From NCBI GenBank assembly GCA_016868895.1, contig VGFK01000001.1, forward strand, positions 87,006-151,005: 64,000 nucleotides of DNA. The letters run 5' to 3'. Position 1 is the stretch's first letter; every line of letters starts with the position of its first letter. Shown here piece by piece: positions 23,676-34,029 of the stretch. Both the position numbers and the translations under genes were made by a program. The notes beneath the pieces are model-generated. The model worked only from the letters and a program-made list of their open reading frames with translations. It was not told where the DNA came from and did not search any database. The stretch comes from Bacteroidota bacterium. GTDB taxonomy: Bacteria > Bacteroidota > Bacteroidia > Chitinophagales > Chitinophagaceae.

Positions 23676-24520
23676 TTCGCGCACTTCGAAAAGATCAGGC
23701 ATTCTTAGAAGACGTTACCACCCTTTCTGCACAGGAGGATCTGCACCTTTGGTGGTTGGGACAAAGCGGATACCTCATTCAATACAAAGGCAAGCGCATT
23801 TTGATCGATCCATATCTATCCGATTCGCTGACCAAAAAATATGCGCAAACCGATAAGCCGCATGTGCGCATCAGTGAACGGGTAATCGACCCTGCCATAC
23901 TTCCCCGCATCGACCTCATCACTTCCAGTCATCTGCATACCGATCACATGGATGCTGCAACAATACTACCGATCCTGTCCCATTCCCCGGAATGCCGCCT
24001 GCTGGTCCCTACCGCCAACCGAAAAGCGGTGGCTGAGCGACTCTCCATCGATGCTCAGGCAATTCATTGCATCAACGAAGGAGAAGAATTTACCTGGAAT
24101 GAATTTCATGTTCGCGCCCTACCGGCAGCACACAATACCATTGAGCGGGACGAACACGGAAATTGTTTATGTCTGGGATATGCAATCACGATCGGTCCCT
24201 ATCGACTCTATCACAGCGGAGACACTCTTGATTATGCGGGATTGGACGATCACCTCCGGAGATTTCAACCGCATCTGGCCATTCTTCCGATCAACGGAAA
24301 CGACCCCGCCAGAAAAGTAGCGGGTAATCTCAATGCAACAGAAGCAGTTGACCTCTGCAAACGTTCCAACCTACCCCTGATGCTTCCCTGTCATTACGAT
24401 CTTTTTGCTTTCAATACTGCAGACATCAGGGAATTTATGCGAACCGCAACTGATTCGCAGCAACGTTTCATCGTGCTGGAACTGGGAGGTCGAATCTGCG
24501 GACGTGAACTGGCAGATTAA
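23672..24520 (+). CDS. MBL-fold hydrolase, UlaG-like
   Basis: A 282-residue metallo-beta-lactamase fold protein. The metal motif is SSHLHTDHMD (H-x-H-x-D-H), later ligands are in LPAAHN and YHSGDTLDY, and a C-terminal LPCHYDLFAFN is present. This is the pattern of UlaG, the L-ascorbate-6-phosphate lactonase, so a lactone of a sugar acid phosphate is a plausible substrate. ATG 23672 overlaps the preceding stop (ATGA), which is better than a longer upstream frame. It is the last gene of the five-gene operon, and its stop overlaps the convergent DUF952 stop by four bases. Confidence 0.88.
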   Translation: MIRALRKDQAFLEDVTTLSAQEDLHLWWLGQSGYLIQYKGKRILIDPYLSDSLTKKYAQTDKPHVRISERVIDPAILPRIDLITSSHLHTDHMDAATILPILSHSPECRLLVPTANRKAVAERLSIDAQAIHCINEGEEFTWNEFHVRALPAAHNTIERDEHGNCLCLGYAITIGPYRLYHSGDTLDYAGLDDHLRRFQPHLAILPINGNDPARKVAGNLNATEAVDLCKRSNLPLMLPCHYDLFAFNTADIREFMRTATDSQQRFIVLELGGRICGRELAD

Positions 24521-24816
24521 AACGGCTTTACCGTTACCACCGCATCCAAATTAATTGGACCGTAGATATGGGGAAAGGTATCCTGAATGGAAGGCGCCCA
24601 TTCAAAGATGTATTGCTCTGTCAGCTTTGTTGTATCAATCTCCAAAAGGATCAATTCGCCTGCATTTTTATAAAATCGTTCCCGAACTCCTTCCAATTGT
24701 GAATGCTGGCTGCAATGAATGAACCCTTCATCTTTCAACGACGGTGCAGTATATTCTCCAGACTGTTGAGCAGTTGCCCATGCAGCAGGAGTTGTAATAT
24801 GATAAATCAGTGGCAT
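24517..24816 (-). CDS. DUF952 domain protein
   Basis: A 99-residue protein made of one DUF952 domain: it begins LIYHITTPAAW, then GFIHCSQHSQL (conserved in the family), then LILLEIDTTKL and FPHIYGPINLDAVV. The family is related in fold to ADP-ribosyltransferase/RNA 2'-phosphotransferase-like proteins, and its function is not known. The ATG follows the aroC stop codon with no gap (TAA then ATG), so it is the last gene of the aromatic operon and probably translated by reinitiation. Confidence 0.88.
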   Translation of the reverse strand: MPLIYHITTPAAWATAQQSGEYTAPSLKDEGFIHCSQHSQLEGVRERFYKNAGELILLEIDTTKLTEQYIFEWAPSIQDTFPHIYGPINLDAVVTVKPF

Positions 24817-25815
24817 TTAGAGTGAAGATACCCTTTTTATCCGTTGTTCGCGTAACAAGAGATCTGCGAGTACCATAGCCGTAACGCCCTCAAGTACAGG
24901 TGGAACACGCAATGCAATGCACAAATCGTGGCGACCTCGAACAGCGAAGGATTCCATTTGATCGGTTTCCCAGTTGTAGGTAAACTGATCCTGTGGAGTA
25001 GAAGAAGTCGGTTTAATGGCAATGCGGAACACCAGCTCATTGCCGTTGGTGAGTCCCCCTAGAATTCCTCCCGCATGATTGGTAGCGGTTTTCCCTGATG
25101 CATTTTCAAGCGCATCGTTGTGCTGGCTCCCAAACAATTCAGTCGATTTGAATCCAGTACCAAATTCAACACCCCTGACTGCGGGTATGGCAAATACAGC
25201 ATGTGCCAGCAAGGATTCAACCGAATCGAAAAAGGGTTCCCCCAATCCTATCGGCAACCCGGAAACACGGCATTCCACAATTCCGCCCACGGAATCTTTT
25301 GCGTCGATTCCTTTTTGCAATCCTTTTTCAGTATCGGTTTCGCCGGCGATGGATGCGATGTGTGCGTCAACAGCAAGTGGAGCAATCATTTTTTTTGCCA
25401 CTACCCCAGCGGCTACCAGACAGAGGGTAAGCCTTCCGCTGAAATGCCCACTGCCTCGATAATCTTCAAATCCTCCGAATTTTTTACTGGCCACAAAATC
25501 AGCATGTCCGGGTCGGGGCACCGCGCGCTGCTTTTCGTAATCACCGGAACGGATGTTCTTGTTTTCAAATAAGAGTGTCAACGGAGCTCCTGTAGTCCTG
25601 CCGTTGAATACCCCACTCTTGAAAAGCGGAAGGTCCTCTTCCTGCCGAGGCGTTGTCCCCTTTTGCATTCCACCTTTTCTGCGTTCGGTGTCTTTGATAA
25701 AATCATCGACCGACAGCAGCATTCCCGCAGGGACACCATCGATCACCACTCCCACACTCTCGCCGTGCGACTCTCCAAAAATGGTGACCTGAAAAAGTTT
25801 TCCGAATTGATTCAT
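24817..25815 (-). CDS. aroC: Chorismate synthase
   Basis: A 332-residue FMN-dependent enzyme that converts EPSP to chorismate. Signatures are the N-terminal FGESHGESVGVVIDGVPAG, the central RPGHADFVASKKFGGFEDYRGSGHFSGRLT (key residues R, H and the second serine/arginine pair), and the C-terminal AVRGRHDLCIALRVPPVLEGVTAMVLAD, noted here by their cores. It is a little shorter than the common 350-390 residues. It is preceded by aroA with a nine-base gap and followed directly by DUF952. Confidence 0.96.
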   Translation of the reverse strand: MNQFGKLFQVTIFGESHGESVGVVIDGVPAGMLLSVDDFIKDTERRKGGMQKGTTPRQEEDLPLFKSGVFNGRTTGAPLTLLFENKNIRSGDYEKQRAVPRPGHADFVASKKFGGFEDYRGSGHFSGRLTLCLVAAGVVAKKMIAPLAVDAHIASIAGETDTEKGLQKGIDAKDSVGGIVECRVSGLPIGLGEPFFDSVESLLAHAVFAIPAVRGVEFGTGFKSTELFGSQHNDALENASGKTATNHAGGILGGLTNGNELVFRIAIKPTSSTPQDQFTYNWETDQMESFAVRGRHDLCIALRVPPVLEGVTAMVLADLLLREQRIKRVSSL

Positions 25816-25824
25816 ATATCAAAA

Positions 25825-27102
25825 TTAGTGGGTTTCCTCTACAGCAGCTCCCAGTTGATTCAAGTGACGATAAAAATCAGGATACGATTTTCCTACGGCT
25901 TCAGCAACATCAATGCGGATGGTGCCATTTGCACGGAGTGCTGCAACAGCGCAGGCCATCGCAATGCGGTGATCGTGATGCGAATGTACATCCGCACCGT
26001 TCAACTGACCACCTCCATGTACGCTCATGATATCTCCGTGCAATTCAATGTTCACTCCCATCTTTCCAAATTCCTGTTGCAGGGTGAGCGCCCGATTGCT
26101 TTCTTTGTGGGTCAGTCGATTAGCACCGGTGATGCGACTGACTCCGTTGCAATAGGCAGCCAGTGCTACCAATGGAGGAAACAAGTCCGGGCATTCCGTA
26201 GCGTCAAACTCAAACGGCTGCAAGGTTGCTGGACCTACCCTATACGTTCCCTGCTCAAGATCAAGAGCTGCTCCGGCATCACGAATGGCATCCAAAATTT
26301 TCTTATCCGCCTGAACAGAATCGGGCTGCATGCCCTGAATCTGAATGGGACCGGCTATTGCTCCGGCTACACATAAAAAGGCTGCTCCGCTCCAATCGCC
26401 TTCCACCGAATAATTGATCTGAGCCGGTGATTCCGGAACCGAATGATCGTCAAAAAAGAAACGCTTGTATCCTTCGACCAGTGGAACCTTCATGCCAAAT
26501 GATTGCATGACCCGGAGAGTGAGATCGATATACGGCTTGCTTTTTAAACCGATGACATCAATGTATACATTGTGAGCACCGGATGCCGCGTAGGCCATAA
26601 GCAGTCCGGTGAGGAACTGTGAACTCAGGCTACCATCCACCTGGATATTTTTAGGAACCAGTGGTCCCGCTATCTCCAATGGAAGCTTTCCATCATGGCT
26701 GCGGATCGATATTCCCAATTGCGGAAAAATTTCATCAAAAAAATTCATGGGACGATTCACCAATGAACCCGAACCGCTGATTACCAATGTGTGATTCGAC
26801 AAAGCAGCGATGGGAGTAAACATGCGGATACCCAAGCCACTTTCTCCGCAATGCACCTCATGGGTGAGCGGGACAACACCCTTGCTTTGCACCCGGATCA
26901 CATCGTGTTCGTTCAGAACAGTTGCTCCCAGTTTCTGGATCACATCCAGTGCTGCACGGTCGTCGTTGCTTCTGCCCGGATGATGAATGAGGGTCTCCCC
27001 TTTGTGCAACAACGCTGCCGCACAGGCCCGTTGCATATCACTCTTGGAGCGAGGAGCGCGAATGGAACCGCTAAGCGCTGAAGGATGAACGGTTGCAATC
27101 AT
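25825..27102 (-). CDS. aroA: 3-phosphoshikimate 1-carboxyvinyltransferase (EPSP synthase)
   Basis: A 425-residue enzyme that joins shikimate-3-phosphate and PEP. The substrate-binding lysine is in APRSKSDMQRA near residue 20, and the C-terminal HSHHDHRIAMACAVAALRA is diagnostic. Instead of the LGNAGTAxRP loop of E. coli the protein has CGESGLGIRMFTP, a Bacteroidota variant of the PEP-binding loop. It overlaps aroB by four bases (27099-27102), so it is coupled to it. Confidence 0.95.
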   Translation of the reverse strand: MIATVHPSALSGSIRAPRSKSDMQRACAAALLHKGETLIHHPGRSNDDRAALDVIQKLGATVLNEHDVIRVQSKGVVPLTHEVHCGESGLGIRMFTPIAALSNHTLVISGSGSLVNRPMNFFDEIFPQLGISIRSHDGKLPLEIAGPLVPKNIQVDGSLSSQFLTGLLMAYAASGAHNVYIDVIGLKSKPYIDLTLRVMQSFGMKVPLVEGYKRFFFDDHSVPESPAQINYSVEGDWSGAAFLCVAGAIAGPIQIQGMQPDSVQADKKILDAIRDAGAALDLEQGTYRVGPATLQPFEFDATECPDLFPPLVALAAYCNGVSRITGANRLTHKESNRALTLQQEFGKMGVNIELHGDIMSVHGGGQLNGADVHSHHDHRIAMACAVAALRANGTIRIDVAEAVGKSYPDFYRHLNQLGAAVEETH

Positions 27103-28142
27103 GCGCGTGTTCGATTGAGTGAAGTAAATGCTTTCAAATAGCCGTTGATGGCCGCTAGGTCTATTTCAACCACTGTTCCTTTTCCGAGTTTTTTCAATGA
27201 AACAAAACGGATTTTTTTACGCTCCCGTTTTTTATCCATCTGAAGAATCTTAAACACGCGGGATACATCAAATTGCGCACGCGTGGGTAATCCGTATTGC
27301 ACCAGAACCGATTCGAGGGATGTTACGCATATTGTTCCATTCATGTGTTCCGATAGCCATCCTGCAAAAACCATTCCCAATGCCACCGCTTGTCCGTGCA
27401 TGAGCTCGTACTGGGTTTCCAAAGCATGTCCCAACGTATGCCCGAAGTTTAAGAGTCGCCTATCTCCTCTCTCGTGCACATCTTTCCCAACAATAGACGA
27501 TTTTATTTCAACGTTGCGGCGAATGATTTTTTTGAGCAGCGTTGAAGTGCGTCGCAATGATGCTAGATCATGTTGCTGCAGGAGCTTGAATAAGCGGGCA
27601 TCGTTGATGCAGGCATGCTTGATGATTTCAGCACAGCCGTTCGACCACTCTGAATCGGGCAAGGTGGACAAAAGGGAGGTGTCGTATAGAATGAATTCCG
27701 GTTGACGAATTACGCCCACCATGTTTTTATACTCTCCTACATCAATACCGTTCTTTCCTCCAATGCTTGCATCCACCATCCCCAATAAAGAAGTAGGCAC
27801 AAAACCAAAACGCAGTCCCCGCATATACACCGATGCAATGTATCCAGTTAAATCAGTGATGACGCCACCGCCCACGCCCACCAAGGTGGTAGAGCGATCG
27901 GCCTGCATAGTGATCAGCTGACCGATTACAGCATCAACCGTGGGTTGGATCTTGTATTCCTCTCCCGGCTTCAGCACAATGCAGCTCCAGCCCTTGAATT
28001 TTTTAAGATGCGCACGATAGACATTCTCATCCGTGATGATGATGGTGTAGCGGCGATCCACTAGCTGTGATAACCGTGAGAACGAAGTATCGAAATGCAT
28101 CGACACCTTTTCTCCCGCGAACGTATAGTGTTTTGTCGCCAT
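27099..28142 (-). CDS. aroB: 3-dehydroquinate synthase
   Basis: A 347-residue NAD- and metal-dependent enzyme that cyclises DAHP to 3-dehydroquinate, the second shikimate step. GVGGGVITDLTGYIASVYMRG and TSLLGMVDASIGGKNGID (described by their cores GGGVITD and DASIGGKNG) bind NAD and substrate. Metal ligands are in CAEIIKHAC and LNFGHTLGHALE. The gene begins two bases after the DAHP synthase stop and overlaps aroA by four bases. Confidence 0.96.
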   Translation of the reverse strand: MATKHYTFAGEKVSMHFDTSFSRLSQLVDRRYTIIITDENVYRAHLKKFKGWSCIVLKPGEEYKIQPTVDAVIGQLITMQADRSTTLVGVGGGVITDLTGYIASVYMRGLRFGFVPTSLLGMVDASIGGKNGIDVGEYKNMVGVIRQPEFILYDTSLLSTLPDSEWSNGCAEIIKHACINDARLFKLLQQHDLASLRRTSTLLKKIIRRNVEIKSSIVGKDVHERGDRRLLNFGHTLGHALETQYELMHGQAVALGMVFAGWLSEHMNGTICVTSLESVLVQYGLPTRAQFDVSRVFKILQMDKKRERKKIRFVSLKKLGKGTVVEIDLAAINGYLKAFTSLNRTRA

Positions 28143-28144
28143 GA

Positions 28145-29233
28145 TTAATCGTTCATCACTTTATTCTGACGGTTGATGCTTTCCATGTGAATGGCGTCCA
28201 TATACCGGCTAATGAACTCTTCGCTCAGTCCCAATTTGGAAGATTTCTTGACTGCCTTTTCCAGGATTTCGCTCCAGCGGTTTTGCTGGAAAATTGTTAC
28301 GTTGTTGTCTTTCTTGTACTGACCAATTTTTTCAGCCACATGCATGCGCTGGGAAATCAACTGCATGAGTTCATCATCAATATGATTAATCTGTTCCCGA
28401 AGTTTATCCAGAGCCGCATGAAAAGAGGGCGATGCCACGTCTTCGTTTCGCCAGTTGATGGCCTCCAGCATTTCCGCCAGGCGTTCGGGCGTAACCTGTT
28501 GCTTGGCATCGCTCCAGGCATTATCCGGATCAATGTGGCTCTCGATCATGAGTCCGTCAAAATCAAGGTCCACCGCTTTCTGCGCGGTACTTTGAAGAAT
28601 ATCGCGTCGACCGCAAATGTGCGAAGGATCATTGATCATCATCATTTCAGGCAATCTTCGCTTCATTTCGAGTGCCAAGTGCCACATCGGCGCATTTCTG
28701 AATTCGGTGTTGCCATAAGAAGAAAACCCGCGGTGAATCAGTCCGATTTCTTTCACGCCTGCGCGGCTTATCCGTTCTACAGCACCTTGCCATAATTCAA
28801 GATCCGGGTTGATTGGATTTTTTATCAGCACCGGCACATTGGCCCCTCTCAGGGCATCAGCTACCTCTTGCACACTGAATGGATTGACCGTTGTGCGGGC
28901 GCCTACCCACAACACGTCTACCTCAAAGGTGAGTGCGTCTTCCACCTGCTTGCCTGTTGCTACCTCCACGGTAGTAGGCAACCCGGTTGCCTTTTTTGCC
29001 TGCTGCAACCAGGGCAAGCCCTTGGTACCAATGCCTTCGAACATTCCAGGCTTGGTGCGCGGTTTCCAAATTCCGGCACGGAGCATGTTGACCATTCCGG
29101 TTTTTGCCAATCGCAGGGCGGTCTCCATAACCTGCTCTTCTGTTTCTGCGCTGCACGGGCCTGAAATGATCAGTGGACGTTTGCTCCACGCCGACTGAAC
29201 GGGTGCTGGGGAGGTGGCGACTGTCTGTTCCAT
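28145..29233 (-). CDS. Bifunctional DAHP synthase / chorismate mutase
   Basis: A 362-residue fusion. Residues about 15-260 are a type I-beta DAHP synthase (LIISGPCSAE at 21-30, RAGIWKPRTKPGMFEG, WVGARTTVNP, IHRGFSSY, DPSHICGRRD), which condenses PEP and erythrose-4-phosphate. Residues about 270-362 are an AroQ-type chorismate mutase (LDKLREQINHIDDELMQLIS, then RMHVAEKIGQYK). In other bacteria the mutase part makes the synthase sensitive to prephenate, so this fusion probably gives feedback control at the first step. It lies between tyrA (30-base gap) and aroB (2-base gap). Confidence 0.95.
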   Translation of the reverse strand: MEQTVATSPAPVQSAWSKRPLIISGPCSAETEEQVMETALRLAKTGMVNMLRAGIWKPRTKPGMFEGIGTKGLPWLQQAKKATGLPTTVEVATGKQVEDALTFEVDVLWVGARTTVNPFSVQEVADALRGANVPVLIKNPINPDLELWQGAVERISRAGVKEIGLIHRGFSSYGNTEFRNAPMWHLALEMKRRLPEMMMINDPSHICGRRDILQSTAQKAVDLDFDGLMIESHIDPDNAWSDAKQQVTPERLAEMLEAINWRNEDVASPSFHAALDKLREQINHIDDELMQLISQRMHVAEKIGQYKKDNNVTIFQQNRWSEILEKAVKKSSKLGLSEEFISRYMDAIHMESINRQNKVMND

Positions 29234-29263: not shown

Positions 29264-30115
29264 TTAGTGTATGATTCGCTTGATCTGATTTGCATTCACG
29301 ATCAATTCATTTAGGTATTCCCAATTTTCTTTTTCCAAACAGGATTTGAATTTTCGCAATTGCGAAATATGTTCATTCAAAACATCCAATACATTTTCTT
29401 TATTCTGCATGAGAATGGGTGTCCACATAGCGGGACTGCTTTTGGCCAACCGAACCGTGCTTTCAAAGCCCGCACTGGCCATTTCAAATATGGCCTCCCC
29501 CTCTTTTTCTTTTTCCAACACCGTGTTGGCAAGAGCAAAAGAAGTGATGTGTGAAATGTGGCTCACGTAAGCAGCGTGCAAGTCGTGTTCGACTGCTCCC
29601 ATTTCAATAATGCGCATCCCGAGATCCGAGAACAGTGATGCAGCATGGGCACGAGCATCGGCATCGGTTTTTTCGGCATCGCAAAAAATAACCGCTTTCC
29701 CCTGAAAGGCGTTATCCACTGCGGCGGATGGACCACTGTATTCTGTCCCCCACATCGGATGAGATGCCAAGAACCTTCCCCGTTTAGGATGATGTTCAAC
29801 AGCGGAAATGATCTGCGATTTAGTCGACCCCATATCCATCACCACCTGATCCTCAATCGCATCCAACACGGATTGCAGTACGGTTGGAACAGCATTCACC
29901 GGAATAGCGAGAACAATCAAGTCGGCCTTCGGTATGGCTTCTTCAAGCGTGGCCATGGTATCAACTAGACCCAGCTCGATGGCTTGTTGCGCATGATGAG
30001 GGTTGTTGTCCACACCAATCAAAGTCTGTGCCCATCCGAGTGAGCGGCAGCGCAGTGCAAACGAACCGCCGATGAGTCCCACGCCAACAATTACAATATT
30101 CTTCTTTGCTTTCAT
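29264..30115 (-). CDS. tyrA: Prephenate/arogenate dehydrogenase
   Basis: A 283-residue NAD(P)-dependent enzyme of tyrosine synthesis. The nucleotide-binding motif is VIVGVGLIGGSFAL at the N-terminus. DMGSTKSQI and ASHPMWGTEYSGP near residues 95-130 carry the conserved substrate-binding residues (S, H and G-x-E). The C-terminal helical dimerisation domain includes HDLHAAYVSHISHITSFAL. No ACT domain is present. The gene starts 11 bases after the aminotransferase stop. Confidence 0.95.
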   Translation of the reverse strand: MKAKKNIVIVGVGLIGGSFALRCRSLGWAQTLIGVDNNPHHAQQAIELGLVDTMATLEEAIPKADLIVLAIPVNAVPTVLQSVLDAIEDQVVMDMGSTKSQIISAVEHHPKRGRFLASHPMWGTEYSGPSAAVDNAFQGKAVIFCDAEKTDADARAHAASLFSDLGMRIIEMGAVEHDLHAAYVSHISHITSFALANTVLEKEKEGEAIFEMASAGFESTVRLAKSSPAMWTPILMQNKENVLDVLNEHISQLRKFKSCLEKENWEYLNELIVNANQIKRIIH

Positions 30116-30126
30116 ATGATCAACCC

Positions 30127-31320
30127 TTATGCGTCAACAGTAGTGTTGTGTTGTTGAATGCGTTTCAATGCTTCAGACAAGATTGCTTTGGTGCTGCACA
30201 AACTGATGCGTACAAACGCATCACCCTGATCGCCAAAAATTCCCCCCGGGGTAATGAATACTTTTGCGTGCGACAAAATACTGTCGCTCAACGCAAATCC
30301 AGATGCAACATTCGAGGGTATCCGGGCCCACACAAACATTCCCACCTGATCCCTTGCATAGCTGCATCCCAATTCATCTAAAATTGCACAGGCGATTTCC
30401 TTTCTCTCGGCATAGACGGCATTCACTTCATCGAACCAATCTGCGCCCAACTCCAGTGCTTTTGCTGCCGCCAGCTGAACCGGTAAAAACATTCCTGAAT
30501 CCATATTGCTTTTGAACCGAAGAATGGCATTGATGTGATTAGCAGCTGCTACAATCATCCCAACGCGCCAGCCCGCCATGTTGTGTGATTTGCTGAGGGA
30601 GTTCAATTCAATGGTCACCTCTTTTTCCGGATCGTACGCCAACAGACTGCCGGGTTGTTCATTGAGGATGAAACTATAGGGATTGTCGTGCACAATGAGG
30701 ATGCGCTCTTTTTTTGCAAATGCGATGATGGACTGCATGAGATCCCCATCCGCCAGTTGTCCCGTTGGCATATGCGGATAATTCAGAAACAGCAGTTTGA
30801 TTCGTCCTGCACCCGAAGCAGCGTAGGCATCAATTTTGTGTTTCCATTGTTGCAGATCCGGTTGCCAGTTGTGTTGTTCTTGAAGGGTGTAGGAGATGAC
30901 ATTTCCGCCAGATAGTCGGACTGCACTCGAATAGGTTGGATAACCGGGATTGGGCACCAGTGCTCCATCTCCCTGGTTCAAATAGGTCATGCAAATATGC
31001 ATGATGCCTTCTTTGCTTCCGATCAACGGCAATATTTCCGATGAAGGATCTACATCGATGCGGTACCACTTCGCATACCATGAGGCGATCGCTTCGCGAA
31101 GTACGGGAGAACCTTTGTACGATTGATAGGCGTGAGTAGAGGGTTTGGCCGACTCTGCATGGAGAACTTCAACGACTGAAGGGTGTGGAGGAAGATCAGG
31201 ACTACCAATACCGAGATTGATCACGCGGTGGCCTGCTTTATTGAGCTCATCGATCTCTCCGAGTTTGGTGCTGAAATAATATTCACCAATGCCTTCCAGT
31301 CGTGACGAAACAGGGATCAT
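30127..31320 (-). CDS. Class I/II aminotransferase (aromatic amino acid branch)
   Basis: A 397-residue PLP enzyme. The Schiff-base lysine is in SLSKSHNMAGWRVG, the PLP phosphate contacts include DNPYSF, and the usual NxPxNPTG appears as NYPHMPTGQ, a variant seen in Bacteroidota. Placed between pheA and tyrA, it most likely transaminates phenylpyruvate and hydroxyphenylpyruvate (or prephenate). ATG 31320 follows the pheA stop by two bases and is chosen over a TTG further upstream. Sequence alone does not exclude an aspartate or LL-diaminopimelate specificity. Confidence 0.9.
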   Translation of the reverse strand: MIPVSSRLEGIGEYYFSTKLGEIDELNKAGHRVINLGIGSPDLPPHPSVVEVLHAESAKPSTHAYQSYKGSPVLREAIASWYAKWYRIDVDPSSEILPLIGSKEGIMHICMTYLNQGDGALVPNPGYPTYSSAVRLSGGNVISYTLQEQHNWQPDLQQWKHKIDAYAASGAGRIKLLFLNYPHMPTGQLADGDLMQSIIAFAKKERILIVHDNPYSFILNEQPGSLLAYDPEKEVTIELNSLSKSHNMAGWRVGMIVAAANHINAILRFKSNMDSGMFLPVQLAAAKALELGADWFDEVNAVYAERKEIACAILDELGCSYARDQVGMFVWARIPSNVASGFALSDSILSHAKVFITPGGIFGDQGDAFVRISLCSTKAILSEALKRIQQHNTTVDA

Positions 31321-31322
31321 AA

Positions 31323-32183
31323 TCAACTGTTGAATTTTCCTTTTTTATACACACCCAGTATCCGCAGGTACTCGGTATTTTTCTTCAATTCCTGAGTGAC
31401 GGCTTCATATTGATCCAAGGCCTCAAATTCCAGATCGGCGTGAAAGCCGTAGCGGAACCGGCTTCCTGCGATAGGGAAAGATTGCAGCTTACTCAGGTTG
31501 ATGCCGTGAACCGCAATCAGGGTAAGCACCTGAGCCAGTCGTCCTTTTGAATGATCGGTATGGAAACTTATGGATGCTTTGTTGGCTCCTGTGATCTCCG
31601 ATGCATGCCGCTGCAGGATCAAAAAACGCGTATAGTTATTTTTTACATCGTGAATATTGGGCGCAATGATGTTCATGCCGAACAGTTCTGCGGCAAGTGC
31701 TCCTGCAATGGCAGCGATGTGTTTGCTTTTTCGCTGATGAACATGTTTGGCACTGAGGGCCGTATCCTCTGTCTCGATGAGCTTCCAGGGATGGCGCTTA
31801 AGGTACTCTGTGCATTGCAACAGGGCCATGGGATGGGAATGCACTTCTCGGATATCAACGAGTTTGACTCCTGGGTTGACCATCAGGTGCTGATCGATTT
31901 GTAGATAAACCTCACCCGTGACAATCAGGTTGGATTTTTGCAACAGGTTGTAGTTGGCCAGGATGCTTCCGGCAATGGAATTTTCAATGGCCATTACCCC
32001 ACCCTGTGTTTTCTTCGAGTTGCCCGCTTCCCGGATCACATCCGTAAACGTAGCGCAGGGTAAAATATCGACCTGTTTTCCAAAAAATTGACGAGCCGCT
32101 ACCTGATGAAAGCTCCCTTCGTAGCCCTGGATGGCCAGCGGCTTAGGGGGTACAGGTACTGCATCTTTTTTTGTCTTGCTCAT
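31323..32183 (-). CDS. pheA: Prephenate dehydratase
   Basis: A 286-residue enzyme that converts prephenate to phenylpyruvate. The N-terminal catalytic part has GYEGSFHQVAARQFF, GVMAIENSIAGSI and the diagnostic NNYTRFLIL (catalytic threonine of the TRF motif). A C-terminal ACT domain (about residues 195-280, ASISFHTDHSKGRLAQVL and LQSFPIAGSRFRYGFHADLE) is the expected phenylalanine sensor, giving feedback control on top of attenuation. It is the first structural gene of the aromatic operon. Its ATG lies 11 bases after the U run of the leader terminator. No chorismate mutase is fused here; that activity is on the DAHP synthase. Confidence 0.96.
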   Translation of the reverse strand: MSKTKKDAVPVPPKPLAIQGYEGSFHQVAARQFFGKQVDILPCATFTDVIREAGNSKKTQGGVMAIENSIAGSILANYNLLQKSNLIVTGEVYLQIDQHLMVNPGVKLVDIREVHSHPMALLQCTEYLKRHPWKLIETEDTALSAKHVHQRKSKHIAAIAGALAAELFGMNIIAPNIHDVKNNYTRFLILQRHASEITGANKASISFHTDHSKGRLAQVLTLIAVHGINLSKLQSFPIAGSRFRYGFHADLEFEALDQYEAVTQELKKNTEYLRILGVYKKGKFNS

Positions 32184-32193
32184 TCGGGTCCAT

Positions 32194-32221
32194 TAAAAAA
32201 AATCCCGGTCTTGACCGGGAT
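32194..32221 (-). terminator. Attenuator terminator ahead of pheA
   Basis: In the transcript, ATCCCGGT (32221-32214 region) and its complement close a GC-rich hairpin (arms within 32202-32221) followed by eight U (32201-32194). It stands between the Phe/Tyr leader peptide and the pheA start. CGGGA near the leader stop could pair with TCCCG of the upstream arm, which would prevent the hairpin, as expected for an antiterminator. Confidence 0.9.
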
Positions 32222-32253
32222 CCTTATGTTGATTTGTTTGAGTGTAGTTTTTT

Positions 32254-32328
32254 TCAACAAAAAGCTCCCGTTCCTCCGGTAAAGAAGTAATAGAAATAAA
32301 AGAAGTAGCGGGTTCTATTCGTTTTCAT
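32254..32328 (-). CDS. Phe/Tyr-rich leader peptide of the aromatic operon
   Basis: A 24-codon frame from ATG 32326-32328 to TGA 32254-32256. It begins MKTNRT and continues RYFFYFYYFF, ten residues of which nine are Phe or Tyr, then TGGTGAFC. It starts five bases after a perfect -7 promoter element and ends 33 bases before an intrinsic terminator that precedes pheA. Ribosome stalling at these codons when Phe- or Tyr-tRNA is short should favour antitermination and expression of the eight downstream genes. Function is inferred from composition, order and spacing, which together fit classical attenuation closely. Confidence 0.88.
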   Translation of the reverse strand: MKTNRTRYFFYFYYFFTGGTGAFC

Positions 32329-32333
32329 CTATG

Positions 32334-32364
32334 CAAAGATAGGTTAGTTTGAAGATTATTCAAA
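32334..32364 (-). promoter_or_regulatory. Consensus Bacteroidota promoter of the aromatic operon
   Basis: The minus strand carries TTTG (32364-32361), exactly 19 bases, then TATCTTTG (32341-32334), a full match to TTTG-N19-TAnnTTTG. The predicted start of transcription falls within a few bases of the leader-peptide ATG at 32328, so the leader mRNA is leaderless or nearly so. Confidence 0.85.
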
Positions 32365-32370
32365 AAAATA

Positions 32371-34029
32371 TCAAAATCTTTTTCTGAATGTATTCCCATC
32401 GGCCTCATTCATTCGAATTTTTCTGCCTTTGAACTTTTTTCCGTCAATGGCGCGGATCATCTGTTGAGCGGAGCGGGATTCGATCTCCACCCAGCTGTTC
32501 ATTTCCCGCATATCGATTTTACCCAGCACGTCTTTTCGAAGATCGCTCATGTCCAGGATGAACTGCAGGAAGCTGGCCTTATAGAAACCGTCTTTGGTAC
32601 CCAGGTTGATGAATAACTTTTTAAAATCGCCACTTCCGCTGCGTGGTTCCCGTGAATCCTGCCTGCTGAACTCTGCACCTTTTTTCGGACGTTCTTTGCG
32701 GTCGTCGCGCATGTTGAGATCAGCTGCATTCTCATAGTACTGCAAGAAGCGGTCAAATTCCAATGCCGCCACGCGTTGTAGAATTTCTTCTTTTTCGGTG
32801 TGCGCAAATTTCTCGCGCAACACAGGAAGATAGGTTTCGTATTCTCCGTGGCTGATGTCGGCCTTGAGCATACGATCGATGAAATGAAAAAACTGTTTGC
32901 GGCAAACGTCTTTTCCGGAAGGAATATCCAATCGGTGAAACCGGTTGTTGATGAGTTTTTCAATTTGTCGCAAGCGATAGGTTTCCCGTTGGGTGAGCAA
33001 TGAAATACAGATACCGCTGTTTCCTGCTCTACCGGTTCGACCGCTGCGATGGGTATAGACTTCCAGATCGTCGGGAAGTTCGTAGTTGATGACATGTGTG
33101 ATGCCCTGGACATCGATGCCGCGTGCTGCAACGTCGGTTGCAATGAGCAGCTGCAAAGAGCGTTCCCGAAAGCGGGCCATCACTTTATCGCGTTGCGCCT
33201 GTGTGAGGTCGCCGTGCAGCGCCTCAATATCGTACCCTTCCCGAATCAGGGATTCGGTGATGGATTGAGCGTCGGCCTTGGTTCGGGTGAATATGATGCC
33301 GTAGATGCCGGGATTAAAATCGATGATGCGCTTCAGGGTTTGGTAGCGGTTCACACCGGAAGTCACATAGTATTGATGATCGATGTTGGTATTGGCGGCG
33401 TTTACTTTTCCAATGGTGACTTCAGCGGGAGTGTCCATGTATTTTCGGCTCACCTGTCGCACTTCATTGGGCATGGTTGCGCTGAACAACCAGATGCTGT
33501 TCCGGTTGGGGGTATTACTGAGGATGAATTCGATATCTTCTCTGAATCCCATGTTCAGCATTTCGTCGGCCTCATCCAACACGATGTATTCGATTTGAAA
33601 CAGATCAATGGCTTTGCGCTCGATCAGATCAATCAGTCGGCCAGGAGTAGCCACCACCACCTGCACTCCTTTTTTAATGTCGCGGATCTGATCTCCCATG
33701 GAGGCGCCACCGTACACGGCAACGGTTCGAAAACCGGGTTTGGCCGATGAAAAATTGGTGAGGTCGCGGTTGATCTGCATACAGAGCTCCCGGGTTGGAC
33801 AAACGATGAGTCCCTTGGGTTTCTGAGCAGGTCCTTCAATGAGTTGGATAAGGGGAAGTCCAAATGCAGCCGTTTTTCCGGTTCCGGTCTGTGCCAGTCC
33901 GATAAAATCTTTGGTACCGCTGAGCAAAGTGGGAATGGCTTTTTCTTGTATAGGGGTCGGGGTCTGAAAACCCAGGATTCGGATGCTATCCAACATGTTC
34001 GCCGCAAGACCTAACGCTTCAAAATTCAT
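32371..34029 (-). CDS. DEAD-box RNA helicase with DbpA-like RNA-binding domain
   Basis: A 552-residue ATP-dependent RNA helicase. Motifs in order: Q motif FQTPTPIQEKAIP, Walker A AQTGTGKT, PTREL, TPGR, DEAD in VLDEADEMLNMGF, SAT in LFSATMP, and HRSGRTGRAG. After a charged linker (about 440-470) a C-terminal DbpA/CsdA-type RNA-binding domain (about 475-545, KLFINLGTKDGFYKASFLQFI) follows. Such enzymes help ribosome assembly or unfold RNA in the cold. ATG 34029 gives the normal N-terminus; a longer upstream frame is only the antisense of the neighbouring low-complexity gene. Confidence 0.95.
   Translation of the reverse strand: MNFEALGLAANMLDSIRILGFQTPTPIQEKAIPTLLSGTKDFIGLAQTGTGKTAAFGLPLIQLIEGPAQKPKGLIVCPTRELCMQINRDLTNFSSAKPGFRTVAVYGGASMGDQIRDIKKGVQVVVATPGRLIDLIERKAIDLFQIEYIVLDEADEMLNMGFREDIEFILSNTPNRNSIWLFSATMPNEVRQVSRKYMDTPAEVTIGKVNAANTNIDHQYYVTSGVNRYQTLKRIIDFNPGIYGIIFTRTKADAQSITESLIREGYDIEALHGDLTQAQRDKVMARFRERSLQLLIATDVAARGIDVQGITHVINYELPDDLEVYTHRSGRTGRAGNSGICISLLTQRETYRLRQIEKLINNRFHRLDIPSGKDVCRKQFFHFIDRMLKADISHGEYETYLPVLREKFAHTEKEEILQRVAALEFDRFLQYYENAADLNMRDDRKERPKKGAEFSRQDSREPRSGSGDFKKLFINLGTKDGFYKASFLQFILDMSDLRKDVLGKIDMREMNSWVEIESRSAQQMIRAIDGKKFKGRKIRMNEADGNTFRKRF

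Follow-up and report, generated by a model that had tools for sequence, protein, structure and literature searches.

A conserved Phe/Tyr-rich leader ahead of pheA that very probably acts as a transcription attenuator of an aromatic amino acid operon in Chitinophagaceae

Introduction

The locus described here raises the question of whether one short leader, placed between a promoter and pheA, could govern an operon that makes both phenylalanine and tyrosine. Leader-peptide attenuation is a textbook class of mechanism, and in classical attenuators the switch is held to be decided during transcription. A comparative study of attenuation from 2010 may already cover the Bacteroidetes. The preliminary description of this locus had taken attenuation of this type to be little described in the Bacteroidota, a statement that has to be corrected: the available part of a transcriptome study of Flavobacterium psychrophilum (2021) describes strong indications that amino acid operons are controlled by leader-peptide attenuation, together with 5' elements at pheA and hisG that are conserved in other genera, among other Flavobacteriaceae (PMC9723704). 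The available part of another source lists a Bacteroid-trp motif and an Actinobacteria pheA motif (PMC2864571). Our literature search, for which most subscription journals lay outside reach, found no description of a combined Phe/Tyr leader, and a search of the same scope, with few subscription journals, found neither covariation for a combined Phe/Tyr leader in the Bacteroidota nor near-leaderless leaders there. We analysed a stretch of 64,000 nucleotides (the window) from a Chitinophagaceae genome, along with pheA loci from related genomes.

Results

Layout of the leader and the aromatic operon

The promoter, leader frame, hairpin and pheA start all lie within 184 bases of the minus strand (Table 1), and the arrangement agrees with the preliminary description: a perfect promoter, a 24-codon Phe/Tyr frame, a GC-rich hairpin with eight U and pheA 11 bases further on. 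The promoter follows the consensus TTTG / TAnnTTTG, as given in the available part of its source (PMC7366714). Five bases, CATAG, separate its TATCTTTG box (hereafter the -7 box) from the leader ATG at 32328. The GC-rich terminator stem reads ATCCCGGT-CAAG-ACCGGGAT (32221-32202), and the first of the eight T at 32202-32195 belongs to the stem; 11 bases lie between this tract and the pheA ATG at 32183, which is 70 bases from the leader stop at 32254. Upstream, a co-directional frame for a DEAD-box helicase (DEAD, Helicase_C and DbpA domains) stops at 32371, 6 bases ahead of the promoter. The antiterminator (32270-32254 x 32232-32215) was absent from the preliminary description and was found here by folding and pairing.

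Table 1. Features of the leader region and of the genes that follow it, in window coordinates.
Feature	Coordinates	Strand	Evidence
Bacteroidota-type promoter, TTTG (32364-32361), 19 bases, TATCTTTG (32341-32334)	32334..32364	minus	consensus match
Leader frame MKTNRTRYFFYFYYFFTGGTGAFC, 24 codons and TGA	32254..32328	minus	translation
Antiterminator 5' half CGGGAGCTTTTTGTTGA, the end of the leader frame	32254..32270	minus	pairing
Antiterminator 3' half TCAACATAAGGATCCCGG, contains the terminator 5' arm	32215..32232	minus	pairing
Intrinsic terminator, 8-pair stem, loop CAAG, eight T	32195..32221	minus	sequence, covariation
pheA, prephenate dehydratase (PF00800)	31323..32183	minus	Pfam
Class I/II aminotransferase (PF00155)	30127..31326	minus	Pfam
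tyrA, prephenate dehydrogenase (PF02153, PF20463)	29264..30115	minus	Pfam
DAHP synthase fused to chorismate mutase (PF00793, PF01817)	28145..29233	minus	Pfam
aroB, 3-dehydroquinate synthase	27099..28142	minus	
aroA, EPSP synthase	25825..27102	minus	
aroC, chorismate synthase	24817..25815	minus	
DUF952 protein (PF06108), last gene of the run	24517..24816	minus	Pfam

The eight-gene aromatic run is likewise as first described: pheA, the aminotransferase gene, tyrA, the gene for DAHP synthase-chorismate mutase, aroB, aroA, aroC and the DUF952 gene follow the leader on the same strand with gaps of at most 30 bases, and they would probably be read as one transcript. One copy of pheA was found in the genome.

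A simple terminator scan of the region returned 13 hairpins against a shuffle mean of 13.1, so that the hairpin by itself would prove little; the scan reported the pheA-leader hairpin in the plus-strand orientation only. Folded whole, the minus strand of the region was mildly more stable than its shuffles (z -1.69), and folding of the plus strand, the wrong one, gave nothing (z -0.32). The 24-residue leader peptide matched no Pfam or NCBIfam model, and an Rfam scan of the whole window at the gathering score returned tRNA only, with no T-box or metabolite riboswitch. One Rfam match at the locus, to rimP, was weak, on the opposite strand and below the cut-off, and was rejected.

Conservation upstream of pheA

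The comparison covered 182 pheA loci for which 300 bases or more of upstream sequence were available: 29 from the genus (the window's own included), 5 from the family, 78 from named relatives, 11 from other families of the order, 32 from other families of the class and 27 from other classes of the phylum. In the phylum search, 70 of the 171 genomes with pheA (own included) were examined, with closer relatives over-represented, and the loci examined were those of the best matches plus 40 picked places. Five loci with less than 300 bases upstream were excluded (L016, L022, L032, L093, L121), as were the fragment L040, two fragments at contig ends (G014:C165 and G027:C60) and L061, which is the L034 locus again. 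Since the named set partly duplicates genomes of the genus set, the 148 leaders reported below include 130 unique ones.

A detector requiring a short frame with at least six Phe/Tyr in 10 residues, plus a terminator, found such a leader in its strict form at 137 of the 182 loci, against 0/182 reverse complements and 0/3,640 dinucleotide shuffles, the best two of which reached five Phe/Tyr; the combination of frame and terminator is thus not due to chance. The rules were then relaxed, since leaders that start with GTG or have weaker stems (L055, L064-L066, L099, L118, L153, L156) were among those that the strict form had missed. The relaxed detector found leader and terminator at 148/182 loci: genus 29/29, family 5/5, named relatives 76/78, order 6/11, class 28/32 and phylum 4/27. 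Its control counts are higher because of the looser rules. They came to 6/182 for reverse complements and 0/182 for reversed sequences, and among control residue pairs to LI 45, LV 22, KR 10, YN 10, KN 7, TS 6, IV 2 and RS 1, with 0 each for WC, HQ, MC, GA and DE; pairs sharing Phe scored FL 68 and FS 52.

The search of relatives suggested at the outset, for Phe/Tyr frames with a terminator before pheA, was therefore successful at every genus locus and at 148 of the 182 overall. The refuting case envisaged with it, relatives that keep the terminator and have lost the Phe/Tyr codons, was not encountered in the genus, where both are kept at all 29 loci with enough upstream sequence; pheA itself was present in 33 of the 36 other genus genomes. 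Cultivable relatives also carry this leader, for example Terrimonas ginsenosidimutans and Taibaiella chishuiensis (loci L102, L160). No leader was detected at 34 of the 182 loci (other classes 23/27, order 5/11, class 4/32, named relatives 2/78), 28 of which belong to other classes or to other families of the order. Relocation accounts for one of the four class misses, in that the leader of genome G134 (pheA locus L175), MLITAAIYFTFFYFYFRSQSRIGAVYCLAKN, precedes the gene for DAHP synthase-chorismate mutase. This Pfam-confirmed arrangement (L258, C1:199512-199654, minus strand) has pheA about 3.5 kb downstream. Another variant was seen at L034 (G053, C30), with two tandem Phe/Tyr-containing leaders, each with its own terminator, ahead of one pheA.

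Two amino acids in the codon run

Each of the 148 leaders has at least two Phe and at least two Tyr codons, with means of 5.0 and 3.7. The runs of the 130 unique leaders hold 558 Phe and 445 Tyr codons (TTT 396, TAT 256, TAC 189, TTC 162); the next most frequent residues are Thr (54), Ser (53) and Arg (50), and Leu (6) and Cys (8) are rare. Mean variability in the aligned run is 0.18 at the first codon base, 0.37 at the second and 0.33 at the third, and the values for the second and third bases fit an interchange of Phe and Tyr together with synonymous changes. Trp codons occur in 33 of the 148 pheA leaders, and some of these Trp-containing leaders may sense all three aromatic amino acids.

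Pairing and covariation of the two helices

Pairing was examined in the state in which the transcript includes the 5' arm of the terminator and not yet its 3' arm. In all 130 unique leaders the 5' arm pairs by at least 5 bases with sequence past the Phe/Tyr run, and in 126 of them this antiterminator has a better energy than 95 or more of 100 versions in which the upstream part was shuffled (p<=0.05). Its partner lies wholly within the leader frame in 118 leaders, at least half within it in 3 and mostly past the stop codon in 9, the last including four order and three class loci. The antiterminator thus uses the region downstream of the regulatory codons, and it and the terminator are mutually exclusive.

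For covariation, 77 of the 92 unique leaders from the genus, family and named sets were aligned. The other 15 had been dropped by eye because their length was odd, their start uncertain or their sequence nearly identical to another, and the start of L024 was moved before alignment, which together may slightly favour the following pairing counts. The antiterminator is 88.7% paired, against at most 47.2% when the arms are slid, and has 36 cells changed on both sides, against a shuffle mean of 13.6 (0/500 as high). Counted by pairs with two-sided change, it is not above the shuffles (5 against a mean of 4.3; 206/500 as high). At one position of this helix 49 sequences have a G-C pair and 18 an A-U pair, and 29/77 leave the outermost pair open. 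For the terminator, pairing reaches 97.4%, two-sided cells number 24 against 5.5 expected, and 4 pairs show two-sided change against a shuffle mean of 2.3 (23/500 as high). A three-way change is found in L024, L027 and L029, where a column of the shared arm has changed from G to C along with both of its partners, so that an antiterminator C-G pair has become G-C and a terminator G-C pair C-G. The shuffle controls ignore relatedness and the slid controls weigh more; both agree. Compensatory changes are present in both helices among the 77 aligned leaders, which answers the covariation check suggested at the outset for the stem and the antiterminator.

Folding with the ribosome in place

We folded the leaders with the bases covered by the ribosome masked, on the assumption that its leading edge lies 12 bases from the start of the A-site codon. 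Placing the ribosome in mid-run or on the final Phe/Tyr codon of the run gave the nascent antiterminator P>0.5 in 130/130 unique leaders; placing it at the stop codon did so in 10/130. The model thus predicts that stalling would keep the nascent antiterminator and that completion of the peptide would remove it. The same procedure gave the expected contrast between mid-run and stop for three Escherichia coli leaders (NC_000913.3), namely 1.0/0.01 for pheL, 1.0/0.01 for thrL and 0.99/0.22 for hisL, and values of 1.0, 1.0 and 0.62 at the last regulatory codon, which indicates that it behaves properly.

At equilibrium, the terminator of the complete leader had P>0.5 in 89/130 leaders with the ribosome in mid-run and in 107/130 with the ribosome at the last codon of the run. 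Since the terminator often wins at equilibrium, the model needs the nascent antiterminator to be captured kinetically during transcription. With this requirement, the RNA folding calculation that had been called for yields a predicted switch consistent with attenuation in the 130 unique leaders.

Without a ribosome, the nascent antiterminator had P>0.5 in 121/130 leaders; its P was 0.99 in the window leader, 0.91 in thrL, 0.07 in pheL and 0.01 in hisL. Since the antiterminator of the window leader forms without a ribosome, with no competing hairpin seen, read-through is predicted if the leader is not translated. The operon would then be on, the opposite of what is predicted for E. coli pheL when initiation fails.

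A start codon beside the promoter

All 29 genus loci have a -7 box, one mismatch being allowed, whose end lies 3-8 bases upstream of the leader start (5 bases in 15 loci, 4 in 7), although these distances are biased toward short values because the detector favoured, among several possible start codons, one with a -7 box. No box was found within 12 bases in 3/76 leaders of the named relatives, 1/5 of the family, 2/6 of the order, 21/28 of the class and 2/4 of the phylum, which makes the box-adjacent start a feature of the window's family and its nearest relatives and not a general one. The box is located around -7 according to the available part of its source (PMC7366714). The leader RNA would therefore start within a few bases of the AUG, with a 5' UTR that is almost nil. 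Short 5' UTRs of less than 10 bases make up only about 3.7% in Bacteroides thetaiotaomicron (PMC7366714), and 5.5% of the mRNAs examined in F. psychrophilum are leaderless (PMC9723704), in each case as given in the part of the source available.

The pattern TTTG-N16-23-TAnnTTTG-N3-8-ATG, a promoter with a near-leaderless ATG, matches 11 places in the 1.75 Mb genome against 3 for a reversed control pattern, and one of the ten matches away from pheA is a second amino acid leader. This His leader (L262; window genome G000, C2, about 279 kb), MFISRHHHHSLPKR, begins 4 bases past a TACTTTTG box and is followed by a terminator and then hisG. We surveyed 22 hisG loci (own included), 19 of them from the genus, after exclusion of the contig-end fragment L287. 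A terminator and a leader in which 8 residues include 3 or more His are present at all 19 genus loci, the -7 box stands exactly 4 bases before the chosen start in 18 of them, and the upstream pairing of the terminator 5' arm spans 7-11 bases in 18 loci and 3 in one (L270). Of the three loci outside the genus, L281 carries both leader and terminator, L286 lacks both, and L266 shows a candidate leader but no terminator. In the window genome we also observed a terminator just upstream of trpE (L265; C2, about 165 kb), preceded by a short frame with one Trp, MLSNITNGYWHHVPTVLG, which is possibly a trp attenuator.

Distribution of similar leaders among genomes

A covariance model built from the pheA leaders matched the window genome strongly once (E<=4.5e-8), and likewise each of the 33 pheA-bearing genus genomes. 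Most of the sequences so matched had been used in building it; G006, G009, G013, G014, G015, G027 and G028 were not themselves in the model. Matches were weak or absent (best E 0.006) in the three genus genomes in which no pheA was found. At E<=0.01 the model matched 50 of 119 class genomes, in many cases over the terminator half only. From both searches we read 26 places beyond the known pheA loci (E 2.4e-6 to 0.006), of which eight precede amino acid genes by Pfam: genes for prephenate dehydratases at L226, L228, L229, L234, L240 and L246, and the genes at L258 and L250. The candidate leader at L240, MLFICLYSGYFCWFCQ, is poor in Phe/Tyr, and the other 18 places showed no convincing leader. 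At L250 (G138, C2:604581-604713, minus strand), an Ile/Thr leader, MIFNTSIITTIIITTGINQRG, and a terminator stand ahead of a gene whose product, an amino acid kinase carrying ACT domains, looks like an aspartokinase from its sequence.

Discussion

Our findings point to a ribosome-mediated transcription attenuator that very probably senses charged tRNA-Phe and tRNA-Tyr and thereby sets transcription of the Phe/Tyr operon. The short frame is rich in codons for the operon's products, an intrinsic terminator lies between this frame and the first gene, and the operon makes both Phe and Tyr. The basis for this reading is the promoter match, the leader, both helices, their conservation and the compensatory changes, all of them seen in the compared sequences.

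We infer the exact transcription start, the translation of the leader, the stalling and the expression response from this arrangement. Transcription would start a few bases from the leader AUG, and a ribosome would load as the RNA emerges. When Phe or Tyr is scarce, the ribosome would stall within the RYFFYFYYFF run and leave 32270-32254 free to pair with 32232-32215, which would sequester the terminator 5' arm; with this arm held, RNA polymerase would continue into pheA. When both amino acids are plentiful, a ribosome at the stop codon would cover 32270-32254, the terminator would form and transcription would stop before pheA. Control by ribosome stalling at the Phe/Tyr codons, as first proposed, is in this sense supported by the comparative tests, from which the regulation itself would follow.

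Other explanations for the locus can be envisaged. The hairpin could be the plain terminator of the upstream helicase gene and the Phe/Tyr frame a chance T-rich stretch, given that the helicase frame ends 6 bases before the promoter, that terminators after genes are common and that terminator-like hairpins in the region do not exceed the shuffles. However, none of the 3,640 shuffles yielded frame and terminator, the frame is kept at 29/29 genus loci, the sequence past the run pairs with the terminator arm in 130/130 leaders with compensatory changes, and a perfect promoter separates the helicase from the leader, all of which makes this explanation very improbable. It is just as hard to credit that the leader acts on pheA mainly through translation, by coupling or reinitiation past the leader stop, and not through termination. 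Reinitiation after a leader has been proposed for many bacteria, including the Bacteroidetes, in the available part of one source, but the peak for the Bacteroidetes there is at 11-14 bp (PMC4833913), whereas the gap from leader stop to pheA is 70 bases and is occupied by a conserved eight-T terminator.

A third possibility accepts attenuation and restricts the sensor to Phe, or to slow translation generally, with the Tyr codons as tolerated substitutes for Phe in a U-rich stretch. In its favour, the second base, by which Phe and Tyr codons differ, varies in the run (0.37; first base 0.18, third base 0.33). Yet all 148 leaders have at least two Tyr (mean 3.7, against 5.0 Phe), the operon makes both amino acids, and codons for Leu (6) and Cys (8) are also one base away from those for Phe and are rare next to the 445 Tyr codons in the runs. 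We therefore consider a Phe-only sensor unlikely and favour the attenuator that reads both amino acids, in which one leader serves two amino acids of one branched pathway.

Within the window's genus and among the closest named relatives, the covariation seen here is evidence of classical attenuation, and the same leader layout is seen in other families of the class. Whether near-leaderless leader peptides, with the -7 box locked beside the leader AUG, are the standard design of amino acid attenuation in the Chitinophagaceae seems to us an evenly balanced question. Flavobacteria are described as being without Shine-Dalgarno sequences in the available part of the F. psychrophilum study (PMC9723704). 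Ribosomes would load at the emerging 5' end of a near-leaderless leader, and the tight coupling needed by attenuation would result. Should the near-leaderless start be borne out, it would point to a way of timing attenuation in a phylum where Shine-Dalgarno pairing is not relied upon. The leader layout also offers a simple search rule, a short frame 4-5 bases after TAnnTTTG and then a terminator, which has already yielded the His leader.

The closest known counterpart is the pheL-pheA system of E. coli (NC_000913.3; Rfam RF01859, Phe_leader), which shares the leader of cognate codons, the terminator before pheA and the antiterminator past the codon run, and which responds to masked folding in the same way as the window leader. 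The order of leader, terminator and pheA that the preliminary description had likened to the enterobacterial one thus stands, and the likeness ends at the mixed Phe/Tyr run, the almost absent 5' UTR that the sequence suggests and the lack of a competing hairpin. E. coli pheL has seven Phe and no Tyr, whereas the run here is mixed, with both amino acids in 148/148 leaders. It has a competing fold without translation, and none was seen in the window leader. Moreover, the start codon here adjoins the -7 box, and its operon leads to both end products. The Rfam Phe_leader model matches the locus on the right strand and over its full length at 21.7 bits (E 0.17) against a cut-off of 55, which places the window leader outside that family.

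The F. psychrophilum elements belong to the same phylum and stand at the same two genes, pheA and hisG, as here; the available part of that account mentions no dual Phe/Tyr sensing, antiterminator, covariation or near-leaderless start (PMC9723704). In the other families of the class, the -7 box beside the leader start is usually missing (21/28), unlike in the window's genus. A parallel for the start is found in the trpL leader (rnTrpL) of Sinorhizobium meliloti, whose transcript begins at the ATG of the leader frame and thus encodes a leaderless leader peptide, according to the available part of its description (PMC7298713). It differs in its Trp codons and its place in the Alphaproteobacteria, and the likeness lies in the described start of the transcript.

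Two further E. coli leaders complete the comparison, both of which differ from the window leader in their amino acids. E. coli thrL and hisL have ordinary 5' leaders. Like the window leader, thrL forms its antiterminator by default without translation (P 0.91), and hisL is the analogue of the His leader in the window's genome. The Ile/Thr leader at L250 follows the thrL pattern in another phylum.
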